Shown: in pieces, positions 5,091 through 30,166 of the stretch | How the letters are laid out: every line of letters starts with the position of its first letter | Numbering within the stretch: position 1 is the stretch's first letter | Assembly (NCBI GenBank): GCA_025210965.1 | Contig: JAOAQY010000108.1 | Coordinates: 1 to 33,271, forward strand | Length of the DNA: 33,271 nucleotides | Direction: 5' to 3' | Origin: Tissierellales bacterium | GTDB taxonomy: Bacteria; Bacillota; Clostridia; Tissierellales; JAOAQY01 | Notes under the pieces: generated by a model | The model's input: only the letters and a program-made list of their open reading frames with translations | Told to the model about the DNA's origin: nothing | Databases searched by the model: none | Program-made: the position numbers and the translations under genes

Positions 5091-6129
5091 AAATATCGTA
5101 TATGATAGAAAGATTGTGCTCTGATGCGAGAGTACTGACTATACTAAATATCAAAACTGCTGCTAAGCTAGCAGTTGAATTATCTAAGTCAAATCTTGGA
5201 GAAACTTCAGCTATGTCGAAACTTATGAGTTTTCCTGATTTAACTATGTGTTTGATTAGCTTTATAGCTCTTTCAGGATCAATGCCAAGTGGCTGAGGGG
5301 CACTTACTCCAGGTGCATTTGCAGAAGAAAAAACATCAGCACAAATAGTCATATATATATCAGTATTTTGTTTTATAAAATCATCTATTTTTTCTGTAAT
5401 ACCCCATAAATCAGCATTTTGTATATCTTTTGCGAGAAGATATTGAGCACCTAATTTGTGAGCAGTTTTGAATAAATCAACGGTATTTCCACTGCGCTGA
5501 ATTCCGAGGCAAAGATAATTGTATGGAAGTTGATTTGCAATACAATAGTCAGCAATCTGTCTGAACATAGTTCCAGAAGTTCCGCCATTATTGTAAGGTC
5601 TGATGTCAAAATGAGCATCAAAATTTATTATGCCCAATTTACTTTTATCATTATCATTTAGTAAATATTGTTTTAGACCATGATAGTGTCCTAATGCAAC
5701 AGCATGGCCACCTCCCAAGATTATTGGAAATAAGCCTAAGTTTAAAATACGATTGACCATGTGTGATAAATCTTTTTGCGCCCGTTCTAAATCTTTTCCA
5801 AAAGGTATTATATTTCCAGCATCGTATATCTTTAAACTTTTATCAAAAGCACAGGGTCTATTCATAAGTTCTTTTCTTATACTATTCGGTCCATTTGCAG
5901 TACCTATTCGTCCCTTATTTCGTTCAACGCCTATATCACTACAAAAACCAATTATGGCGATTCCAAGTTTATGATTAAAGTTTTCTTTTTTTATATTATT
6001 CAGATCAATACATTGTACCCATTGATGCCAGCGGAAGGCATCGTAATTATCTTTGCTATCAATTCTGCCCTTCCAAAAAGATTGGGAGATAGTTTCGTAT
6101 CCTACAGGAAGATTTTCGTTTCTATTCAT
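5089..6129 (-). CDS. Ureohydrolase, formimidoylglutamase-like (arginase superfamily)
   Basis: A 346-residue binuclear-manganese hydrolase of the arginase/agmatinase/formimidoylglutamase superfamily, which cleaves C-N bonds of guanidino or formimino substrates. Ligand motifs are GGGH (His142) and DAHFDIR (Asp171, His173, Asp175); the third motif reads TICADVF (Asp265). At position 263 a Cys stands where arginases have a metal-binding Asp. Glu308 matches the conserved acidic residue downstream. The APGVSAPQPLG segment (272-282) resembles HutG-type enzymes more than arginase or agmatinase, hence the call, but the substrate is not proven and no other histidine-degradation genes are nearby. An AGAGGTC site precedes the start. 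The gene diverges from the molybdopterin-binding protein gene, and its predicted promoter contains a perfect palindrome. Confidence 0.82.
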   Translation of the reverse strand: MNRNENLPVGYETISQSFWKGRIDSKDNYDAFRWHQWVQCIDLNNIKKENFNHKLGIAIIGFCSDIGVERNKGRIGTANGPNSIRKELMNRPCAFDKSLKIYDAGNIIPFGKDLERAQKDLSHMVNRILNLGLFPIILGGGHAVALGHYHGLKQYLLNDNDKSKLGIINFDAHFDIRPYNNGGTSGTMFRQIADYCIANQLPYNYLCLGIQRSGNTVDLFKTAHKLGAQYLLAKDIQNADLWGITEKIDDFIKQNTDIYMTICADVFSSANAPGVSAPQPLGIDPERAIKLIKHIVKSGKLISFDIAEVSPRFDLDNSTASLAAVLIFSIVSTLASEHNLSIIYDI

Positions 6130-20884: not shown

Positions 20885-20912
20885 AAAAGAGCAGCTTTAT
20901 AGCTGCTCTTTT
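20885..20912. terminator. Bidirectional terminator between gltB and the phosphatase
   Basis: A 12-bp stem (20885-20896 with 20901-20912), loop TTAT. T-runs follow on both strands. The stop codon of the minus-strand gene (20897-20899) lies in the loop. Confidence 0.92.
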
Positions 20913-21991
20913 AATATCCATCCAAATTCATTGTCATGCTTTATGAGAACGCAATCATCATAAGTTTTGCAAACTTCAACGACTTCACCAGGATTTAGAT
21001 TGAAGAATTTGTTTACATATATAGTTTTTAAGCTAGTTTCACGTCCGTTGTTCTCTAGAAGAGAATTGAAAACTGACAGGTATTGATTTGTTTTTTTATG
21101 TTTGCAAAGAGAAATTCTATCTCCTTTTTCTATGACTTCAACTTCAAAATTTGGATAATTAACTATGATAGTTTTTTCTTTTTTAAATTTATGCCCTCGA
21201 TTTATAGTTTTTAATTCAAAATCATTTTGTTGTAGACAATCGTAGTGAATTTGACCATTTTTTTTCTCTATTATAAAGGCATTTAATTCACCAGATGTTT
21301 TGACGCCTAATCCACCGTCTATAGTTATTATATTTTTTTGAGTATTAAAAAGAGGCAGATTGGTTAGTATAGTGTGTCTTAGGTTACTTGCAGGCCAGTG
21401 ACCAACTACAACCATTTTGTTATTTATACCACTAACCTTATTGTAATTATCGTATTTTAAGAATCTTCCCTCGTCTTCTGGCAATTTGAAAGCGGGATCA
21501 TATCCGCCATGTACAAATATGAATTCATCAAAATTAACCATTACAGGCAGTGAATTTATAAATTCAAGTGTTTCAAAATGATGATCAAAAATATTTTTTT
21601 GGAACGCTATACCTGAGGTACAATTTTGAAAGTCAAAATTAGATAATTGTACGAAGTCATCTATGATAGTTTTATAGTGAGGCGCTTTAAAGTGCTCTAG
21701 AAAGACATCAGCTCTTTTTTTATCTTTTAAACTATTGTATATAAAGGATTCGTGATTTCCTTTGAGTATTATTGTGTTAGGTCTAGTGCTTAGATTTTTT
21801 ATAAAAGAGTAAGTTTCGTAACTATTAGGTCCTCTATTTATAAAATCACCTATAATTATTAGATAATCACTTGACTTTAAAGACAGCTTATCAATAAGTT
21901 TTTTAAAATGATCAAAGTGACCATGTATATCACTTATAGCTACTATTTTATAGTTATCTTTGCAGTCTATATTGATAATTTTATTGCTCAT
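20897..21991 (-). CDS. PPP-type metallophosphoesterase (calcineurin-like) with C-terminal SH3-like region
   Basis: This 364-residue cytosolic phosphoesterase resembles bacterial serine/threonine or diadenosine-tetraphosphate phosphatases. Metal-site motifs of the PPP family are complete: DIHGH (Asp21, His23), GDFINRG (Asp49, Arg53), GNHE (Asn79, His80), then VHGGYDP and VVGHWPAS carrying the two later His ligands. The C-terminal 90 residues are extra. Their end, NPGEVVEVCKTYDDCVLIK then EFGWI, looks like a small SH3-like beta barrel, possibly for target binding. GGAGG lies upstream of the ATG. It is convergent with gltB and divergent from the stressosome operon. The substrate, protein or nucleotide, is not determined. 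Confidence 0.85.
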   Translation of the reverse strand: MSNKIINIDCKDNYKIVAISDIHGHFDHFKKLIDKLSLKSSDYLIIIGDFINRGPNSYETYSFIKNLSTRPNTIILKGNHESFIYNSLKDKKRADVFLEHFKAPHYKTIIDDFVQLSNFDFQNCTSGIAFQKNIFDHHFETLEFINSLPVMVNFDEFIFVHGGYDPAFKLPEDEGRFLKYDNYNKVSGINNKMVVVGHWPASNLRHTILTNLPLFNTQKNIITIDGGLGVKTSGELNAFIIEKKNGQIHYDCLQQNDFELKTINRGHKFKKEKTIIVNYPNFEVEVIEKGDRISLCKHKKTNQYLSVFNSLLENNGRETSLKTIYVNKFFNLNPGEVVEVCKTYDDCVLIKHDNEFGWILKEQL

Positions 21992-22112: not shown

Positions 22113-22901
22113 ATGAAAATTGATAAAGAATTGCAAAAAAAATTGAAAAAGCAAATTTTAGAGCAAATACCAGCACCGGTAATGGCAGTTAACAATGATT
22201 TTGATATATTGTACATAAATGATAAAACGAGAGAGTTATTAGATAGAGATGATGATGATATTATAGGAAAAAAATGTAGTAAATTATTTAATTCGACGCA
22301 TTGTGGCGGTAATTGTTGTATGAAGCAAGCTATGAAAGAGCTGAAAACTTGTTCTAGTAGAAGTGAGATAAGGATAGATGGTAGAGATGTTCCGGTGGAA
22401 TGTTATGCCGTTCCTTTAAAAAATGAAAGTGGGGAAGTAATAGGGGGATTGGAGTTTATACTAGATATAACTGAGCAGTATAAATACGAGCAGAGACTCA
22501 AAGAACAAAGTCATACCATAAGAGAGATGTCTACTCCAACTATTAAACTTTGGGAGGGGGTACTTGTACTACCTGTAGTTGGGGTAGTTGATTCTGTGAG
22601 AGCACAATATATGATGGAGAGTATATTAGAAAAAATTGTTCAAACATATGCAAAAGTGATAATACTAGATATTCAAGGTGTAGCTGCAGTTGATACGGCA
22701 GTTGCAAATCACTTAATAAAAATAACAAATGCGACCAAATTGATGGGTTGTCAGTGTATAATGTCTGGAATTTCGCCAGCGGTAGCTCAAACTATAATAC
22801 ATTTAGGCATTGATATGCATGGAATTTGCACCAAAGCAACACTTAGTGATGCTTTAGAGGAAGCATTTTCAATATTGGATATGAAGGTGGTTTCGAAATA
22901 G
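22113..22901 (+). CDS. RsbR-like stressosome sensor: Cys-rich PAS domain plus STAS domain
   Basis: A 262-residue soluble protein. Residues about 15-120 form a PAS domain; 135-255 form the STAS domain that builds the stressosome core. In STAS, DIQGVAAVDTAVANH contains Thr195, matching the RsbT-phosphorylated Thr171 of B. subtilis RsbR. Thr227 (VAQTII) is near the place of its second site, Thr205. The sensor is unlike the globin-fold N-terminus of B. subtilis RsbR: it is a PAS with Cys55, Cys64, Cys68 and Cys69 (C-x8-C-x3-CC), suggesting redox, metal or Fe-S sensing. The start at 22113 is chosen for the GGGGAGGGG site at 22100-22108; a GTG at 22086 would lie upstream of that site. It is the first gene of a five-gene operon, 20 bp from the next. 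Confidence 0.88.
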   Translation: MKIDKELQKKLKKQILEQIPAPVMAVNNDFDILYINDKTRELLDRDDDDIIGKKCSKLFNSTHCGGNCCMKQAMKELKTCSSRSEIRIDGRDVPVECYAVPLKNESGEVIGGLEFILDITEQYKYEQRLKEQSHTIREMSTPTIKLWEGVLVLPVVGVVDSVRAQYMMESILEKIVQTYAKVIILDIQGVAAVDTAVANHLIKITNATKLMGCQCIMSGISPAVAQTIIHLGIDMHGICTKATLSDALEEAFSILDMKVVSK

Positions 22902-22921
22902 ATTATTAGGAGATGAAAAGG

Positions 22922-23284
22922 ATGCTATTAGATACCTCTATGAAGAAGATCAATGACAAATTGATAGTTTCACTAAAAGCTGATCTATCAGATAGAGATT
23001 TAGGGATTATGGTCGGAGAAGTAATAAATAAAGTTGATTCCGAGGGTGTAGATGGAGTAGTAATTGATTTTTCTATGATACGAGTTATTACGGCTTATTC
23101 TTATGATATTTTCATGAATATGACAAAAGCAATAAGGCTTATGGGATCAGACGTGGTGTGGGTGAGTCTAAGACCGGGGGTAGTTGTGTCATTGATAGAT
23201 TTAGACTTAGTTGATTCTATGGCAAATATCAGAACTAGCATGACAGTAGAACAGGGGATTTTATTATTAGAAAAAGGAGTTTAG
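22922..23284 (+). CDS. RsbS-like stressosome STAS scaffold, lacking the canonical phosphoserine
   Basis: A 120-residue single-STAS protein that aligns along its length with RsbS (121 residues in B. subtilis), which holds the RsbT kinase inside the stressosome until phosphorylated on Ser59. Anchors are GVVIDF (45-50), RLMG and a C-terminal EQGILLL. In this alignment, the Asp-Ser pair of RsbS (58-59) is Thr57-Ala58, so the normal phosphoacceptor is absent. Thr57 or Ser60 might substitute. The start at 22922 is preferred because GGAG at 22909-22912 would touch the ATG at 22913. It lies between the RsbR-like and RsbT-like genes and stops 4 bp before the latter. Confidence 0.85.
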   Translation: MLLDTSMKKINDKLIVSLKADLSDRDLGIMVGEVINKVDSEGVDGVVIDFSMIRVITAYSYDIFMNMTKAIRLMGSDVVWVSLRPGVVVSLIDLDLVDSMANIRTSMTVEQGILLLEKGV

Positions 23285-23288
23285 AACT

Positions 23289-23780
23289 ATGCTAGTAAAT
23301 GAATTTGATGATAATACTATAAATTCTAAAATTGAACAAAAAGAATATCGAACATTGAACAAAAAGACTATAGATATATTATTTGAAACTGACAATGAGT
23401 ATGTCATATATTGTGTTAGACAACTATGTAAATCAGTTCCTTTTGAAAAAATGGAATCGACACTTATAGCTACTGCAGCATCAGAATTGGCAACTAATAT
23501 CATAAGATATGCTAAGAACGGAATTGTAGAGATTAAGGTGATTGAAAATATTGATTCGAAAAACATTGGGATTGAAATTTATGCTCATGATCAAGGTCCA
23601 GGTATAGAAAATATAGAGATTGCTATGGGCGATAATTATACTACGTGGAATAATAGTTTAGGATTTGGATTAGCGAGTATTAAAAGGATTATGGATGAAT
23701 TTTATATCTATTCTAAGGTTGGTAGTGGAACAAAAATTTTAGTGCGAAAATGGAAAGTAGAGAAGGGATTTTATGATTAG
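23289..23780 (+). CDS. RsbT-like switch kinase (GHKL/HATPase family)
   Basis: The 163-residue serine/threonine kinase of the RsbT/RsbW type is expected to phosphorylate the STAS domains of its neighbours and then leave the stressosome to bind an output protein. The N-box is ELATN with Asn70, the G1 box DQGPG (Asp101, Gly103, Gly105), and the G2 box LGFGLASIKR (124-133), so the ATP site looks functional. It has an N-terminal extension of about 30 residues relative to the 133-residue B. subtilis RsbT. GGAG at 23276-23279 gives the ribosome binding site. Its last 8 bp overlap the start of the kinase gene, implying translational coupling. No RsbU homologue is present; the coupled hybrid kinase is the likely output. 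Confidence 0.88.
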   Translation: MLVNEFDDNTINSKIEQKEYRTLNKKTIDILFETDNEYVIYCVRQLCKSVPFEKMESTLIATAASELATNIIRYAKNGIVEIKVIENIDSKNIGIEIYAHDQGPGIENIEIAMGDNYTTWNNSLGFGLASIKRIMDEFYIYSKVGSGTKILVRKWKVEKGFYD

Positions 23781-26700
23781 ATTAGGAGAGCTAAAAATAT
23801 ATGATAGTCATTCACTTATAAATGCTCAATTGAAAATTAGGAGAATATTACCTAAATTAAATTATGTAGAGATATTAGCTGTAAAAATAGAGGCTATAAT
23901 AGAAAATTTATTTAGAGAAATATTGGGAAGACAAGAAGAAATTGATGCTGAAGTTTTTATAGATAATGATTTTGCTGATAAGAAATTTTTGATTCGAATT
24001 GAAGTTAGAGATGAAGAAAACCTGCCTTTTGTGTATTTGTTTGATTTGTTTGAATCAAAAGTGATTGATGGCAAAAAAAATATATATGTAGGATTTGATA
24101 TAGAAAGTCATAATATATTTAGCGATGAGGCTATAGAGCAAATTAAAACGCAATTTGATATAAAAACAAGATCTGAACTTATGCTAGAGCTAAATCACAA
24201 GAATGATCAGCTTGAAAAAAGCGAACAATTTTTACAGTCATTATTGAGCAATATAAAATCTGCTATATATACCAAAAATTTAATTGGAGAATACACATAT
24301 GTAAATAGTGAATGCGAAAAACTAGTTCAGCGAGAAAAAAAAGATCTCATTGGGAAAACGGACAAAGAGTTATTTGAAAAACAGGTTTGTGAGGAATTGG
24401 AAAAAAATGATGAACTAGTTGTAGAAAAGAAGAAGAGCATTACGACTGAGGATAGGATAGTAGATAATCACGGAGATGTATTTTATTTTCTAACTACAAA
24501 AGTTCCAATGTTACAAGACAATAAAGTGGTTGGAATATGCTGTATTTCTATAGACATAAGCGAGAGAAAACAAATGGAAGAGGAGCTAGTTATTGCAAAA
24601 AGTATTGCAGAAGAAGCTTCGAGAGCTAAGGCAGATTTTCTCGCTAACATGAGTCATGAAATAAGAACTCCTATGAATGCTATTATGGGAATGAGCTATC
24701 TTATGCAGAAGACAGATCTTACATCTAAGCAAAAAAATTATTTAGATAAGATATGTAAATCAAGTCAGCATTTATTGGGAATAATAAATGATATTCTTGA
24801 TTTTTCAAAAATAGAAGCTGGTAAACTAGAGATTGAAAAGATTAAATTCAAGTTAAGTGATGTTTTGGATAATCTAGCTACACTAGTGGGACAAAAATGT
24901 TCTGAAAAGGGGCTAGAGTTAGTATTTGATGTGGAACCTAGTTTGTCAAATACATTCTTAGGAGATCCACTTAGATTGGGTCAAATTTTAATTAATTTTA
25001 CAAATAACGCGGTAAAATTTACAGAAAGTGGACAAATTATAATTAGAATAAGAAAATATTCAAAAAAAGAGAATAAAGAAGTTATAAAATTTGAAGTTGA
25101 AGATAGCGGTATAGGGATCAAAAAAGAGCATTTAGCTAGTTTGTTTAAATCATTTCAGCAAGCAGATACATCTACAACTCGTAAATATGGAGGGACAGGA
25201 CTCGGGCTTGCTATATCGAAAAATTTGGCAGAGTTAATGAACGGTGAAGTTGGTGTTAAATCTGAATATGGAAAGGGAAGTGTATTTTGGTTTACTGCAG
25301 AACTTATTGAAGATTATGAAATGAAGGCGATGGATATACTTAAAAAAATGCCGAAAAAATACAGAGTACTTGTAGTAGATGATAATGAAAATTCTAGAGA
25401 CGTACTAAAAGAGATGCTTTCATATATGGGATGTGTTGTTGAAACTGCAGATTCTGGAGAAATAGCTGTTGAGAAAGTTCGGAGGTATTTAGAAAAAGGA
25501 ATATTGTTTGATATAGTATATATGGATTTTCAATTAGTAGAGATAAATGGTATAGAGACATTTAAAAGAATAAAAGAAATTACTAAATTAGGTGTACCTA
25601 AAGGAATAATGGTAACAAATTTTGGACGTGAAGAAATTATATTAGAAGCTAAAAATACAGGTTTTGAGATGGTTTTAGTAAAACCAGTTAATCCTATTAT
25701 ATTATATGAATCAACTATGGAAGTGTTGGGCATCAAAGAGAAAGACGAGAGAGCGTTTGAAGAGATTGTAGAGGATGGTAGCTCGAAACTTTTAACCAAA
25801 AATATAAATGTTTTATTAGTTGAGGATAATGAATTAAATCAAGAAGTAGCAAAGGAAATTATAGAGTCGTTTGGTTTTATAGTTGATATAGCTGAAAATG
25901 GCGAAAAATCACTAGATAAAGTGAGTAATAATGACTACGATATAGTTCTAATGGATATGCAGATGCCAGTTATGGACGGTATTAGTGCAACAAAAAAAAT
26001 AAGAAATGATTTAGGTAAAATAGACATTCCAATTATTGCAATGACCGCTAATGCGATGGAAGAGGATAAAGAAAAATGCAGTTTAGCAGGGATGAATGAT
26101 CATTTATCAAAGCCTATAAATCCAGAGCATTTATTTGAAATAATAAAAAAATGGTCAAATATCAGTCAAGTTGTGGTGAATGAAAACTTGGAAGATTTAA
26201 AAGAACCTTGTAATTTAGAGCATTTATTGCATGTAGATGGACTTGATGCAAAAGCTGGATGTGATAGGGTTATGGGCAAAAAAAAGACTTATATTAGATT
26301 ACTAAAGAGGTTTGTAGAAGAAGAAGCATTTTCTGTTGATAATATAGAGCATGCTATAGTTAAAAAAGACTATGAAAAAGCTGAATATTTGACACATACG
26401 CTTAAAGGCGTGACGGGGAATATAGGAGCAACAAGAATTTTTGAGCTGGTTTTGGATTTTGAAAATACATTGAAAGATCATAAAAATGACAAAACTTTAT
26501 TTAAAAAGATACCTGAGTTAAAATCGGTATATAACAAGTTAATAAGAGATTTAGATGACATAATGGAAAAAGATTCTGAAGACGAAAAAACTTCTGATAT
26601 TAGAAGTGCCAAACAAATGGATGATTTGATTTCAAGATATAGAATATTTATTGAAAAAAGGAAGACTAGGGAATGCAAAGAGTTTGCTAAAAAGTGCAAA

Positions 26701-26826
26701 TCATTTATTTGGCCAGAATATATGGCAGAAGATGTTAGTAAATTAGGTAATATGTTAGAGCGCTATAGATACAAAGATGCTCTTGTTCTATGTGATCAAT
26801 TGGAAGAAAAACTAAGGGAGGCATAG
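23773..26826 (+). CDS. Soluble hybrid histidine kinase (RsbT-like?-PAS-HisKA-HATPase-REC-REC-HPt)
   Basis: A 1017-residue cytosolic phosphorelay kinase without membrane segments. Order: an unusual N-terminal domain (about 1-130), a coiled linker, PAS (about 150-270), HisKA with His295 (MSHEIRTP), HATPase (N-box FTNNAVKF, G1 EDSGIGI, G2 GGTGLGLAI), receiver 1 with Asp585 (YMDFQL), receiver 2 with Asp728 (LMDMQMPVMDG), an HPt domain with His875 (THTLKG), and a C-terminal tail of about 90 residues. All phospho-sites are present, though receiver 1 is less canonical. The N-terminal domain may be a degenerate RsbT-like fold: Asn45 and Asp80 line up with the ATP-site Asn and Asp of the neighbouring kinase, but the Gly boxes are gone. 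It overlaps the preceding gene by 8 bp. The REC-HD-GYP gene begins 1 bp after its stop. Confidence 0.93.
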   Translation: MIRLGELKIYDSHSLINAQLKIRRILPKLNYVEILAVKIEAIIENLFREILGRQEEIDAEVFIDNDFADKKFLIRIEVRDEENLPFVYLFDLFESKVIDGKKNIYVGFDIESHNIFSDEAIEQIKTQFDIKTRSELMLELNHKNDQLEKSEQFLQSLLSNIKSAIYTKNLIGEYTYVNSECEKLVQREKKDLIGKTDKELFEKQVCEELEKNDELVVEKKKSITTEDRIVDNHGDVFYFLTTKVPMLQDNKVVGICCISIDISERKQMEEELVIAKSIAEEASRAKADFLANMSHEIRTPMNAIMGMSYLMQKTDLTSKQKNYLDKICKSSQHLLGIINDILDFSKIEAGKLEIEKIKFKLSDVLDNLATLVGQKCSEKGLELVFDVEPSLSNTFLGDPLRLGQILINFTNNAVKFTESGQIIIRIRKYSKKENKEVIKFEVEDSGIGIKKEHLASLFKSFQQADTSTTRKYGGTGLGLAISKNLAELMNGEVGVKSEYGKGSVFWFTAELIEDYEMKAMDILKKMPKKYRVLVVDDNENSRDVLKEMLSYMGCVVETADSGEIAVEKVRRYLEKGILFDIVYMDFQLVEINGIETFKRIKEITKLGVPKGIMVTNFGREEIILEAKNTGFEMVLVKPVNPIILYESTMEVLGIKEKDERAFEEIVEDGSSKLLTKNINVLLVEDNELNQEVAKEIIESFGFIVDIAENGEKSLDKVSNNDYDIVLMDMQMPVMDGISATKKIRNDLGKIDIPIIAMTANAMEEDKEKCSLAGMNDHLSKPINPEHLFEIIKKWSNISQVVVNENLEDLKEPCNLEHLLHVDGLDAKAGCDRVMGKKKTYIRLLKRFVEEEAFSVDNIEHAIVKKDYEKAEYLTHTLKGVTGNIGATRIFELVLDFENTLKDHKNDKTLFKKIPELKSVYNKLIRDLDDIMEKDSEDEKTSDIRSAKQMDDLISRYRIFIEKRKTRECKEFAKKCKSFIWPEYMAEDVSKLGNMLERYRYKDALVLCDQLEEKLREA

Positions 26827-26827
26827 T

Positions 26828-27916
26828 ATGGAAAAAACTTTGACAGATTGTAAAGTACTGATAGTAGATGATACTGAAATGAATATAGATATTTTAGTTG
26901 AAACATTGGAGGATAAGTATGAACTGTCAGTGGCCATGGATGGAAGTTCTGCATTAGAGTGTGTTGAACTCGAAAAACCTGATTTGATTTTATTGGACAT
27001 AATGATGCCGGATTTGGATGGTTATACAGTTTGTAAGAAACTTAAAAAAGATGAGACAACGAGAGATATACCAATAATATTTTTAACTGCTATTACAGAT
27101 GTTGGAAGCAAGGCAAAAGGATTTGAAGCTGGAGCAGTGGATTATATAACAAAACCCTTTGAGAGTATAGAAGTGCAAGCAAGAGTCAAAACTCATCTGT
27201 TACTTGAGAGAGCTAGAAAAGAACTTTTGAATCAAAATGAAATATTAGAAGAGCGTGTTAAGGAGAGAACTAGAGAGATTGAATTGACTCAGGAAGCTAT
27301 GATAGATGCCTTTGCTACCTTGGCAGAATATAGGGATCCAGAAACTGGCGGACATATAAAGCGCACTAAAAATTATGTGAAAGTTATGGCAACAAAATTG
27401 AGCACATTGAATGAATATAAAGAGTTTATTACAAAAGATGTAATTGAAAAATATTATAGTTCAGCTCCACTCCATGACATAGGTAAAATTGGGATAAGAG
27501 ATGAAATTTTACTTAAACCTGGACGATTAACTAGTGGAGAGTTTGATGAGATGAAAAAACATACAGTCTTGGGTCTAAAAGTTTTGGAAGAAGCTTCGCA
27601 GAATTTAGGAGAAAAATCATTTTTAAAATATGCTATGGAATTTTCGAAATATCATCATGAAAGATGGGATGGAAAAGGTTATCCAGAGGGACTTTCAAAA
27701 TCAGATATTCCACTAGCTGGCAGAATAATGGCAATTGCGGATGTTTACGATGCGCTGATAAGTAAAAGAGTTTATAAACCTGCATTTTCTCATGAAGAAG
27801 CAGTCGAAATGATAAGGCAAGGAAGTAATAGTCAATTTGACCCTTCATTGGTAGATGTTTTTTTAGATATAAGTAATCAGTTTTATGATATATCTCAAAA
27901 ATACAAAGATGAATAA
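26828..27916 (+). CDS. Response regulator with HD-GYP output, predicted cyclic di-GMP phosphodiesterase
   Basis: A 362-residue RpfG-like protein: receiver domain (about 8-125) with phospho-acceptor Asp57 (LLDIMMPDLDG) and switch Lys109, a coiled-coil linker (about 125-155), and an HD-GYP domain (about 160-350). Catalytic residues are complete: His216-Asp217 with Lys220 (LHDIGK), His245, His276-His277, GYP at 284-286 and Asp305, so it should hydrolyse c-di-GMP when phosphorylated. GGGAGG at 26817-26822 lies in the tail of the kinase gene. The adjacent phosphorelay kinase with its HPt is the natural phosphate donor. A strong terminator closes the operon. It may also act on related cyclic dinucleotides. 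Confidence 0.94.
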   Translation: MEKTLTDCKVLIVDDTEMNIDILVETLEDKYELSVAMDGSSALECVELEKPDLILLDIMMPDLDGYTVCKKLKKDETTRDIPIIFLTAITDVGSKAKGFEAGAVDYITKPFESIEVQARVKTHLLLERARKELLNQNEILEERVKERTREIELTQEAMIDAFATLAEYRDPETGGHIKRTKNYVKVMATKLSTLNEYKEFITKDVIEKYYSSAPLHDIGKIGIRDEILLKPGRLTSGEFDEMKKHTVLGLKVLEEASQNLGEKSFLKYAMEFSKYHHERWDGKGYPEGLSKSDIPLAGRIMAIADVYDALISKRVYKPAFSHEEAVEMIRQGSNSQFDPSLVDVFLDISNQFYDISQKYKDE

Positions 27917-28360: not shown

Positions 28361-28372
28361 ACTGAGGTGAGG

Positions 28373-30166
28373 ATGAAGAAAATGAAGAATATAAAGATAT
28401 TGTCAGAGATTGCTATGAAATTTATTTCATCAGATTCATTTGATTTGCAAATTAAAGAAACACTTGAGCTTATTGGAAATTATTTTTCCGTTAGTAGGGT
28501 CTATATTTTTATTGATAGTGATGATGGTGAAACTACAAGCAATACTTATGAATGGTGTGCAAATGGAGTAGAATCTGAGATATATAAGTTGCAAAATATA
28601 GGTTATAAACAATTTCCAAATTGGAGAGAAGAATTAATAGAAAAAGGAATGTTATGCTATGAGGAGATAGACAATCTTGACGAAGATTTAAGGGAGTTTT
28701 TAAATAACCAAAATATAAAATCACTAGTTATATATCCTATATATATAAATAAAAAATACAAAGGTTTTATAGGGTTTGATGAGTGTTTTAAAAACAGAAA
28801 ATGGATAGAAAAAGAATTTGAAATGCTTAAAATAATATCGGGAATAATTTCAACTGTCTATGAAAAAAAAATGTATCAAGACAATCTAAAGTTAGCATTA
28901 AATCAATTTAAGATATTGTTTGATTATAATCCAGAGCCCATGGCAATAAACGATTATGAAAGAGAAGTGTTTCTTGATGTAAATCAGGCATTTTTATCAA
29001 AAATGCATTACAAAAGAGATGATGTTATAGGAAAAACTCCAAAAGAAATAGGTATAACTTCACTAGATGGTTCTGATTTTAGATTAATAGGTTTAATTAA
29101 GCGAAGAAAAACAATCAAAAATGCGCGGCTAGAATTTTTGGTAAAAGAAAAACAAGAACTTGTAGGTATATTTTCGGGAGAAATAATTGAAGTTGAAGGA
29201 ATAAAGAAAATTTTGACAGTAATGAATGATATAAGCGAAGAGATAAAATTGAATAAAGAATTAGAAATTCAAAAGCAGAGATTAGAACACATAATAGAGG
29301 GAACTCACATGGGAACATGGGAGTGGAATATCCCAAATGGAACTGTGAGATTCAATGAAAGATGGGCAGAAATTATAGGCTATACGCTTGAAGAGCTTGA
29401 GCCAATAACTATAGAGACTTGGATAAAATATGCAAATAAAGAAGATTTAAAGAGGTCAAATGAGCTTTTACAAAAACATTTTAGAGGTGAAACTCCAAAC
29501 TATGATTTTGAGGGAAGAATGAAACATAAAAATGGAAATTGGATTTGGATACTAGATAGAGGACGAGTTATGAAGTGGAGTGAAGATGGAAAACCAATAG
29601 AGATGTTTGGAACACATACAGACATAACAGAGAAGAAAAAACTACAAAATCAAATAGAAGAAATGGCCATAAGAGATGGACTTACTGGTATTTACAACAG
29701 GAGATATATATTTGACCGATTGAGAAAAATGTATTCAGAGTATAAACGAACAGGCAATAATTTTTCGGTAGCAATAATAGATATAGATTATTTTAAGAAG
29801 ATAAATGATAATTATGGTCATATAGGCGGGGATCATGTACTAAAAGAGTTTACTAAATTGATACAAAATATGATTAGAGATTATGATTTGTTAGGTCGTT
29901 ACGGCGGGGAGGAATTTATAGTTGTATTTCCAAATACGAAAACATCTAAAGCAGCAATGGTAGTAGAACGAATATTAAATAGAGTTAGGCAAAGTTGTTT
30001 TAGATATTCTGATAAAGATATTTGTTTTACGTTTAGTGCAGGAGTATATGATGCTTCTGAAATAAGTGGTGATAGTTCATCTATTGAAGAAATTATAGAG
30101 GGCGCGGACAATAGACTATACAAAGCAAAAAGAGGAGGAAGAGATAATATAATGATAAATGGATAA
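28373..30166 (+). CDS. Diguanylate cyclase with GAF and two PAS domains
   Basis: A 597-residue soluble protein, predicted to make cyclic di-GMP from two GTP. Domains: GAF (about 10-165), PAS (about 175-290), PAS-PAC (about 300-425, FEGRMKHKNGNWIW then DITEKK), and GGDEF (about 430-595). The active site is GGEEF at 511-515, and a feedback I-site RDYD lies at 502-505, five residues before it, so the enzyme should be product-inhibited. There are no membrane segments, so the signals are intracellular. Start codons at 28367 (GTG), 28373 and 28382 are possible; 28373 is chosen by its spacing from GAGGTGA. It is near the HD-GYP enzyme with the opposite activity. Confidence 0.93.
   Translation: MKKMKNIKILSEIAMKFISSDSFDLQIKETLELIGNYFSVSRVYIFIDSDDGETTSNTYEWCANGVESEIYKLQNIGYKQFPNWREELIEKGMLCYEEIDNLDEDLREFLNNQNIKSLVIYPIYINKKYKGFIGFDECFKNRKWIEKEFEMLKIISGIISTVYEKKMYQDNLKLALNQFKILFDYNPEPMAINDYEREVFLDVNQAFLSKMHYKRDDVIGKTPKEIGITSLDGSDFRLIGLIKRRKTIKNARLEFLVKEKQELVGIFSGEIIEVEGIKKILTVMNDISEEIKLNKELEIQKQRLEHIIEGTHMGTWEWNIPNGTVRFNERWAEIIGYTLEELEPITIETWIKYANKEDLKRSNELLQKHFRGETPNYDFEGRMKHKNGNWIWILDRGRVMKWSEDGKPIEMFGTHTDITEKKKLQNQIEEMAIRDGLTGIYNRRYIFDRLRKMYSEYKRTGNNFSVAIIDIDYFKKINDNYGHIGGDHVLKEFTKLIQNMIRDYDLLGRYGGEEFIVVFPNTKTSKAAMVVERILNRVRQSCFRYSDKDICFTFSAGVYDASEISGDSSSIEEIIEGADNRLYKAKRGGRDNIMING

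Follow-up and report, generated by a model that had tools for sequence, protein, structure and literature searches.

A PAS-type stressosome operon whose RsbS lacks the canonical Asp-Ser phospho-acceptor motif

Can a stressosome still signal when its RsbS has lost the canonical phospho-acceptor residue, and by which route? The question is raised by an rsbS gene in the window, that is, the whole stretch of 33,271 nucleotides analysed here. The open reading frame at 22913-23284 (+ strand) encodes a protein of 123 residues. An AGGAG motif abuts the ATG at 22913 but sits 9 nt ahead of the ATG at 22922; because of this spacing, the latter is likely to be the real start, which gives a predicted gene at 22922..23284 and a product of 120 aa, with ATG 22913 as the alternative start. 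The product is a single-STAS protein, and its earlier identification as RsbS was borne out by phmmer, by the predicted fold and by the place of the gene between rsbR and rsbT. The best PDB matches (phmmer) were the RsbS proteins of B. subtilis (6jhk, E = 2.9e-11), V. vulnificus (7o0i_a, E = 4.5e-11), Listeria and Moorella. An AlphaFold model built from three sequences showed a STAS fold with a mean pLDDT of 84 and a helix at residues 58-73, and its top VIA-align match was B. subtilis RsbS (Z 17.8, 115 residues, 2.1 Å).

Positions 23090..23101 (+ strand) encode Thr57-Ala58-Tyr59-Ser60, counted from the ATG at 22922, as the earlier note had written. Gap-free phmmer alignments with the RsbS of B. 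subtilis, V. vulnificus and Listeria placed Ala58 on Ser59 of the B. subtilis protein and Thr57 on Asp58, Ser60 being at the +2 position, and multiple alignments agreed. A shifted alignment with Thr57 or Ser60 on Ser59 was dropped, as it needs paired gaps. Ala58 is the opening residue of the helix in the model. Beyond the acceptor serine, the adjoining Asp is also gone, and the typical Asp-Ser/Thr phospho-acceptor motif is replaced by Thr-Ala. This motif is typical of RsbS and not universal; it is not essential for RsbS membership, because the V. vulnificus RsbS, whose structure within the stressosome is solved, has no Ser there either.

The Thr-Ala form comes from a single genome, and it might be thought an alignment or sequencing artefact. 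It had been suggested that homologues with Ser at position 58 would reveal a sequencing error; instead, the nearest homologues carry Thr there, in a fast-evolving RsbS lineage. Because both residues differ from those of the Asp-Thr orthologues, and the change from Asp to Thr alone takes at least two base substitutions, neither chance nor a single-base error accounts for Thr-Ala. The gap-free alignments are also anchored on both sides and agree with the structure match, so an artefact is extremely improbable.

An alignment of 72 RsbS loci was assembled. They came from genomes that share the window's class or phylum, from plasmids and from a single Nitrospira contig; phyla beyond that of the window were sampled through the plasmids, the Nitrospira contig and the PDB only. 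The motif at positions 58-59 was DS in 58 loci, DT in 10, and DR, DI, DV and TA in one each, the last being the window. Asp58 was present in all 71 other loci and Ser or Thr59 in 68. The acceptor Ser is truly absent from the window RsbS, and the window is the sole locus of 72 without Asp58. The DR motif belonged to Vibrio sp. THAF191d (L033), DI to Flammeovirga and DV to L047, and Gly occupies the acceptor position in the PDB entry for V. vulnificus RsbS. The window protein keeps 38 of the 47 otherwise conserved columns, and Asp-Thr orthologues keep 37, 38 and 41. This similar score shows that the motif was lost in an otherwise preserved RsbS and not through general decay. The L047 locus (G312; 5158-5991, - strand) pairs an rsbS whose acceptor position holds Val with an rsbT, and has neither rsbR nor rsbX; it lies downstream of a CheB-like gene, and a kinase gene and chemotaxis-like genes follow it.

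A tree was built on the RsbR STAS domain, RsbS and RsbT. The sister of the window was a group of eight genomes, all from a single different genus of its class (L039-L046; support 100), and the next branch out comprised Vibrio and Flammeovirga (support 100), V. vulnificus being outside the tree sample. The motif was DTYTY in the sister genus; the acceptor was R and I in the Vibrio/Flammeovirga branch, to which the Gly of V. vulnificus may be added, and groups outside this whole clade had DS or DT, save L047. From these states on the tree, Thr-Ala is most simply explained as a derived loss. Among 249 genomes of the window's order scanned with a profile, and 60 relatives searched with the RsbS sequence alone, only the window's own genome had the operon; an RsbR search of viral contigs found none.

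The loss of the canonical acceptor in RsbS has a precedent. A V. brasiliensis RsbS without canonical phospho-sites was reported in 2016 (PMC4976288); it was weakly phosphorylated when RsbR was present, and the residues were not pinned down (PMC4976288). Gaidenko and Price (2014, PMC3944199) found that S59A in B. subtilis blocks mild-stress responses only, and that 13%, 33% or 63% of the 4% ethanol response is left, depending on the RsbR complement (PMC3944199). The earlier statement that S59A keeps the B. subtilis pathway off was thus overstated. Even a T171A-S59A double mutant remains able to signal in a B. subtilis strain that has RsbRA only (PMC3944199), and from S59A stressosomes the authors proposed a second, phosphorylation-independent mechanism (PMC3944199). 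The earlier note named the right two alternatives: either a different residue accepts the phosphate, or the system signals with RsbS unphosphorylated. New here are a PAS-type stressosome that has lost Asp, acceptor and rsbX together, and the RsbT-like N-terminus on the kinase.

The partners of RsbS are well preserved. Upstream lies an RsbR-like co-antagonist gene (22113..22901, + strand), whose product has a PAS domain (about residues 13-125; Pfam PAS_4, 6e-18) and a C-terminal STAS domain (4e-15); the STAS half matches V. vulnificus RsbR (7o0i_B, E = 2.9e-44). By alignment, RsbR Ser161 (22593..22595, + strand) occupies the position of Thr171 in B. subtilis RsbRA and Thr175 in Listeria, and Ser199 of V. 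vulnificus RsbR has been named as the equivalent site (PMC9237108). Thr195 (22695..22697, + strand), at the position of Thr205 in RsbRA and Thr209 in Listeria, and Thr227 (22791..22793, + strand), at that of Listeria Thr241, are kept. Downstream of rsbS is a gene for an RsbT-like serine kinase (23289..23780, + strand; HATPase_c_2, 2.5e-9; NCBIfam spIIAB, 6.4e-15; matches to SpoIIAB structures), in which the N-, G1- and G2-box residues are intact and all residues invariant in the RsbT alignment are kept.

This pattern could mean that RsbR phosphorylation is the sole switch, RsbT modifying Ser161 and Thr195 and so governing its own binding, with RsbS passive. Such a scheme fits the three retained RsbR sites and the identity between window and sister operons, which is 81-83% for the RsbR STAS domain against 31-36% for RsbS. 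However, the B. subtilis double mutant described above still signals, modification of Thr205 in B. subtilis dampens the output, and the dephosphorylation of RsbR would be left without explanation, as no RsbX orthologue was found in the assembly. We consider RsbR as the sole switch improbable.

The rsbX gene, which encodes a PP2C phosphatase, is absent after rsbT in the window operon, where the start of the kinase gene overlaps the rsbT stop; the orthologous operons L044 and L040-L043 carry rsbX between these two genes. Elsewhere in the assembly, three SpoIIE-domain proteins (frames of 384-432 residues) were found, none of them RsbX-like. A calcineurin-like metallophosphoesterase gene (20897-21991, - strand) is divergent from the operon; it was dropped as a substitute for RsbX, adjacency being its sole support. 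Among the eight sister genomes, rsbX is intact in five, frameshifted in one (L039) and absent in two (L045 and L046). The split gene in L039 (5520-6135) may have become a pseudogene, or the assembly may be at fault there. The idea that rsbX loss is a strict partner of acceptor loss was rejected, since all four combinations occur: L045 and L046 have no rsbX yet keep Asp-Thr, and L033 and L034 have no acceptor yet keep rsbX.

With acceptor and phosphatase both lost, the operon might be decaying, the stressosome being locked or dead and RsbT permanently held. The fast evolution of RsbS could be read in the same way, as the mean ratio of RsbS to RsbR distances, taken over non-independent pairs, is 4.25 in the window's clade versus 1.16 in the Asp-Ser group, and so could the frameshifted rsbX of L039. 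However, all five genes of the operon are open and tightly spaced, and RsbS, RsbT and RsbR each retain their conserved columns. RsbS and RsbT are both fast relative to the RsbR STAS domain in this clade, and RsbT is about as fast as RsbS (RsbS/RsbT distance ratio 1.19 versus 0.89 in the Asp-Ser group, again from non-independent pairs), a pattern as compatible with co-evolution as with decay. A decaying operon is thus very unlikely.

It is also possible, if rather doubtful, that the acceptor has moved and that RsbT phosphorylates either Thr57 or Ser60, which lies in the helix's first turn, so that classical release survives. Ser60 would be the best alternative candidate, because at +2 every one of the eight sister genomes has Thr and V. 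vulnificus has Ser (DGES); that residue is hydrophobic in nearly all Ser59 RsbS proteins. The V. brasiliensis RsbS, phosphorylated although its canonical sites are not conserved (PMC4976288), points the same way. On the other hand, the +2 residue is Asp in Vibrio sp. THAF191d and Flammeovirga, so the wider clade does not conserve a hydroxyl there; the Asp just before the acceptor, which every one of the other 71 loci has, is lost too, and no rsbX is left to undo a phosphate at a moved acceptor.

Because Asp and rsbX are lost as well, we lean to a system without RsbS phosphorylation, which we favour only moderately. Several points count against this reading: other acceptors can exist, as V. brasiliensis indicates; Ser60 aligns with hydroxyl residues in V. 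vulnificus and all the sister genomes; loss of rsbX and loss of the acceptor do not go hand in hand; and the Thr-Ala form is known from one genome.

Downstream of rsbT there is no rsbU/V/W-sigB, the SigB operon of Bacillales; a hybrid histidine kinase gene and a REC-HD-GYP gene are found there instead. The kinase (23773..26826, + strand; Pfam) comprises an RsbT-like region, PAS, HisKA, HATPase, two receivers and HPt. In profile comparison (hhalign), about the first 80 residues of its N-terminal region (23773..24160, + strand) aligned with the RsbT profile at a probability of 95.8% (E = 7.9e-9), and the RsbS profile, as a control, gave 0.5%. This RsbT-like domain is degenerate in its N-box and lacks ATP-binding motifs; its model is of low confidence (pLDDT 51), and the best, non-significant matches were SpoIIAB, SiaB and RsbW. 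A degenerate RsbT-like start was also seen on downstream hybrid kinases at L044:2827, L045:2387, L046:2308, L033:7344 and L002:3227. The V. vulnificus downstream kinase has no RsbU_N domain (PMC9237108), and it is therefore plausible that the pseudo-RsbT domain acts as a coupling or docking module. The last gene (26828..27916, + strand; Pfam Response_reg, 3.4e-27; HD_5, 8.2e-29) encodes a REC-HD-GYP response regulator, a probable c-di-GMP phosphodiesterase output. A PAS-GGDEF diguanylate cyclase gene (28367-30166) follows soon after, so that genes for c-di-GMP synthesis and breakdown neighbour each other.

Taken from sequence and models, our best explanation, to which we give an even chance, is a PAS-sensing stressosome in which RsbS, no longer open to phosphorylation at the canonical site, serves as a preserved scaffold and RsbT-binding subunit, and RsbT is released or gated through RsbR without a phosphate on that site. 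At rest, RsbT would be seated on the RsbR/RsbS core. A PAS signal would shift the core, helped by RsbR phosphorylation at Ser161 and Thr195, and RsbT would be freed or re-oriented as in B. subtilis S59A under strong stress. It would then act on the hybrid kinase, the RsbT-like N-terminus being the likely contact, and the phosphorelay would end with the HD-GYP protein and the turnover of c-di-GMP. A switch that has neither a phospho-RsbS step nor RsbX would be less sensitive, and its reset would not involve dephosphorylation by RsbX. It is unlikely, though conceivable, that signalling proceeds without any RsbS phosphorylation or RsbX, with the kinase using its RsbT-like domain to dock directly either on RsbT or on the RsbR/RsbS core; the core would then control the phosphorelay by occupancy and not by phospho-release.

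Among known systems, the PAS-type rsbRST(X) operons L039-L046 are the closest relatives (100% support), with the same PAS-STAS RsbR, kinase and HD-GYP partners. However, their RsbS carries Asp-Thr-Tyr-Thr, and rsbX is intact in most of them. The O2-sensing stressosomes of V. vulnificus and V. brasiliensis (rsbRSTX with downstream D1/D2) resemble the window in an RsbS without the canonical phospho-serine, and in Vibrio sp. THAF191d the RsbR STAS domain is 53% identical to that of the window and a hybrid kinase is likewise followed by REC-HD-GYP. The Vibrio stressosomes differ in that the RsbR sensor is a globin and not PAS, rsbX is present, Asp58 is kept, and Gly or Arg stands in place of Ala. 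The B. subtilis and Listeria RsbRST systems share the STAS scaffold and the RsbT kinase, and their engineered S59A and S56A forms mimic the natural residue of the window; they differ in the Ser acceptor, in RsbX, in the SigB pathway via RsbU and in non-haem globin sensors.

Engineered S59A mutants in B. subtilis raised the question of whether RsbS phosphorylation is an essential step or a sensitiser. The window is a natural case: kinase and sensor are present, but the site, the adjoining Asp and the phosphatase gene are missing. Among its close orthologues, which have an Asp-Thr acceptor, some carry rsbX and others do not. The RsbT-like N-terminus of the kinase suggests a route by which a stressosome without an RsbU_N target may reach a two-component output.
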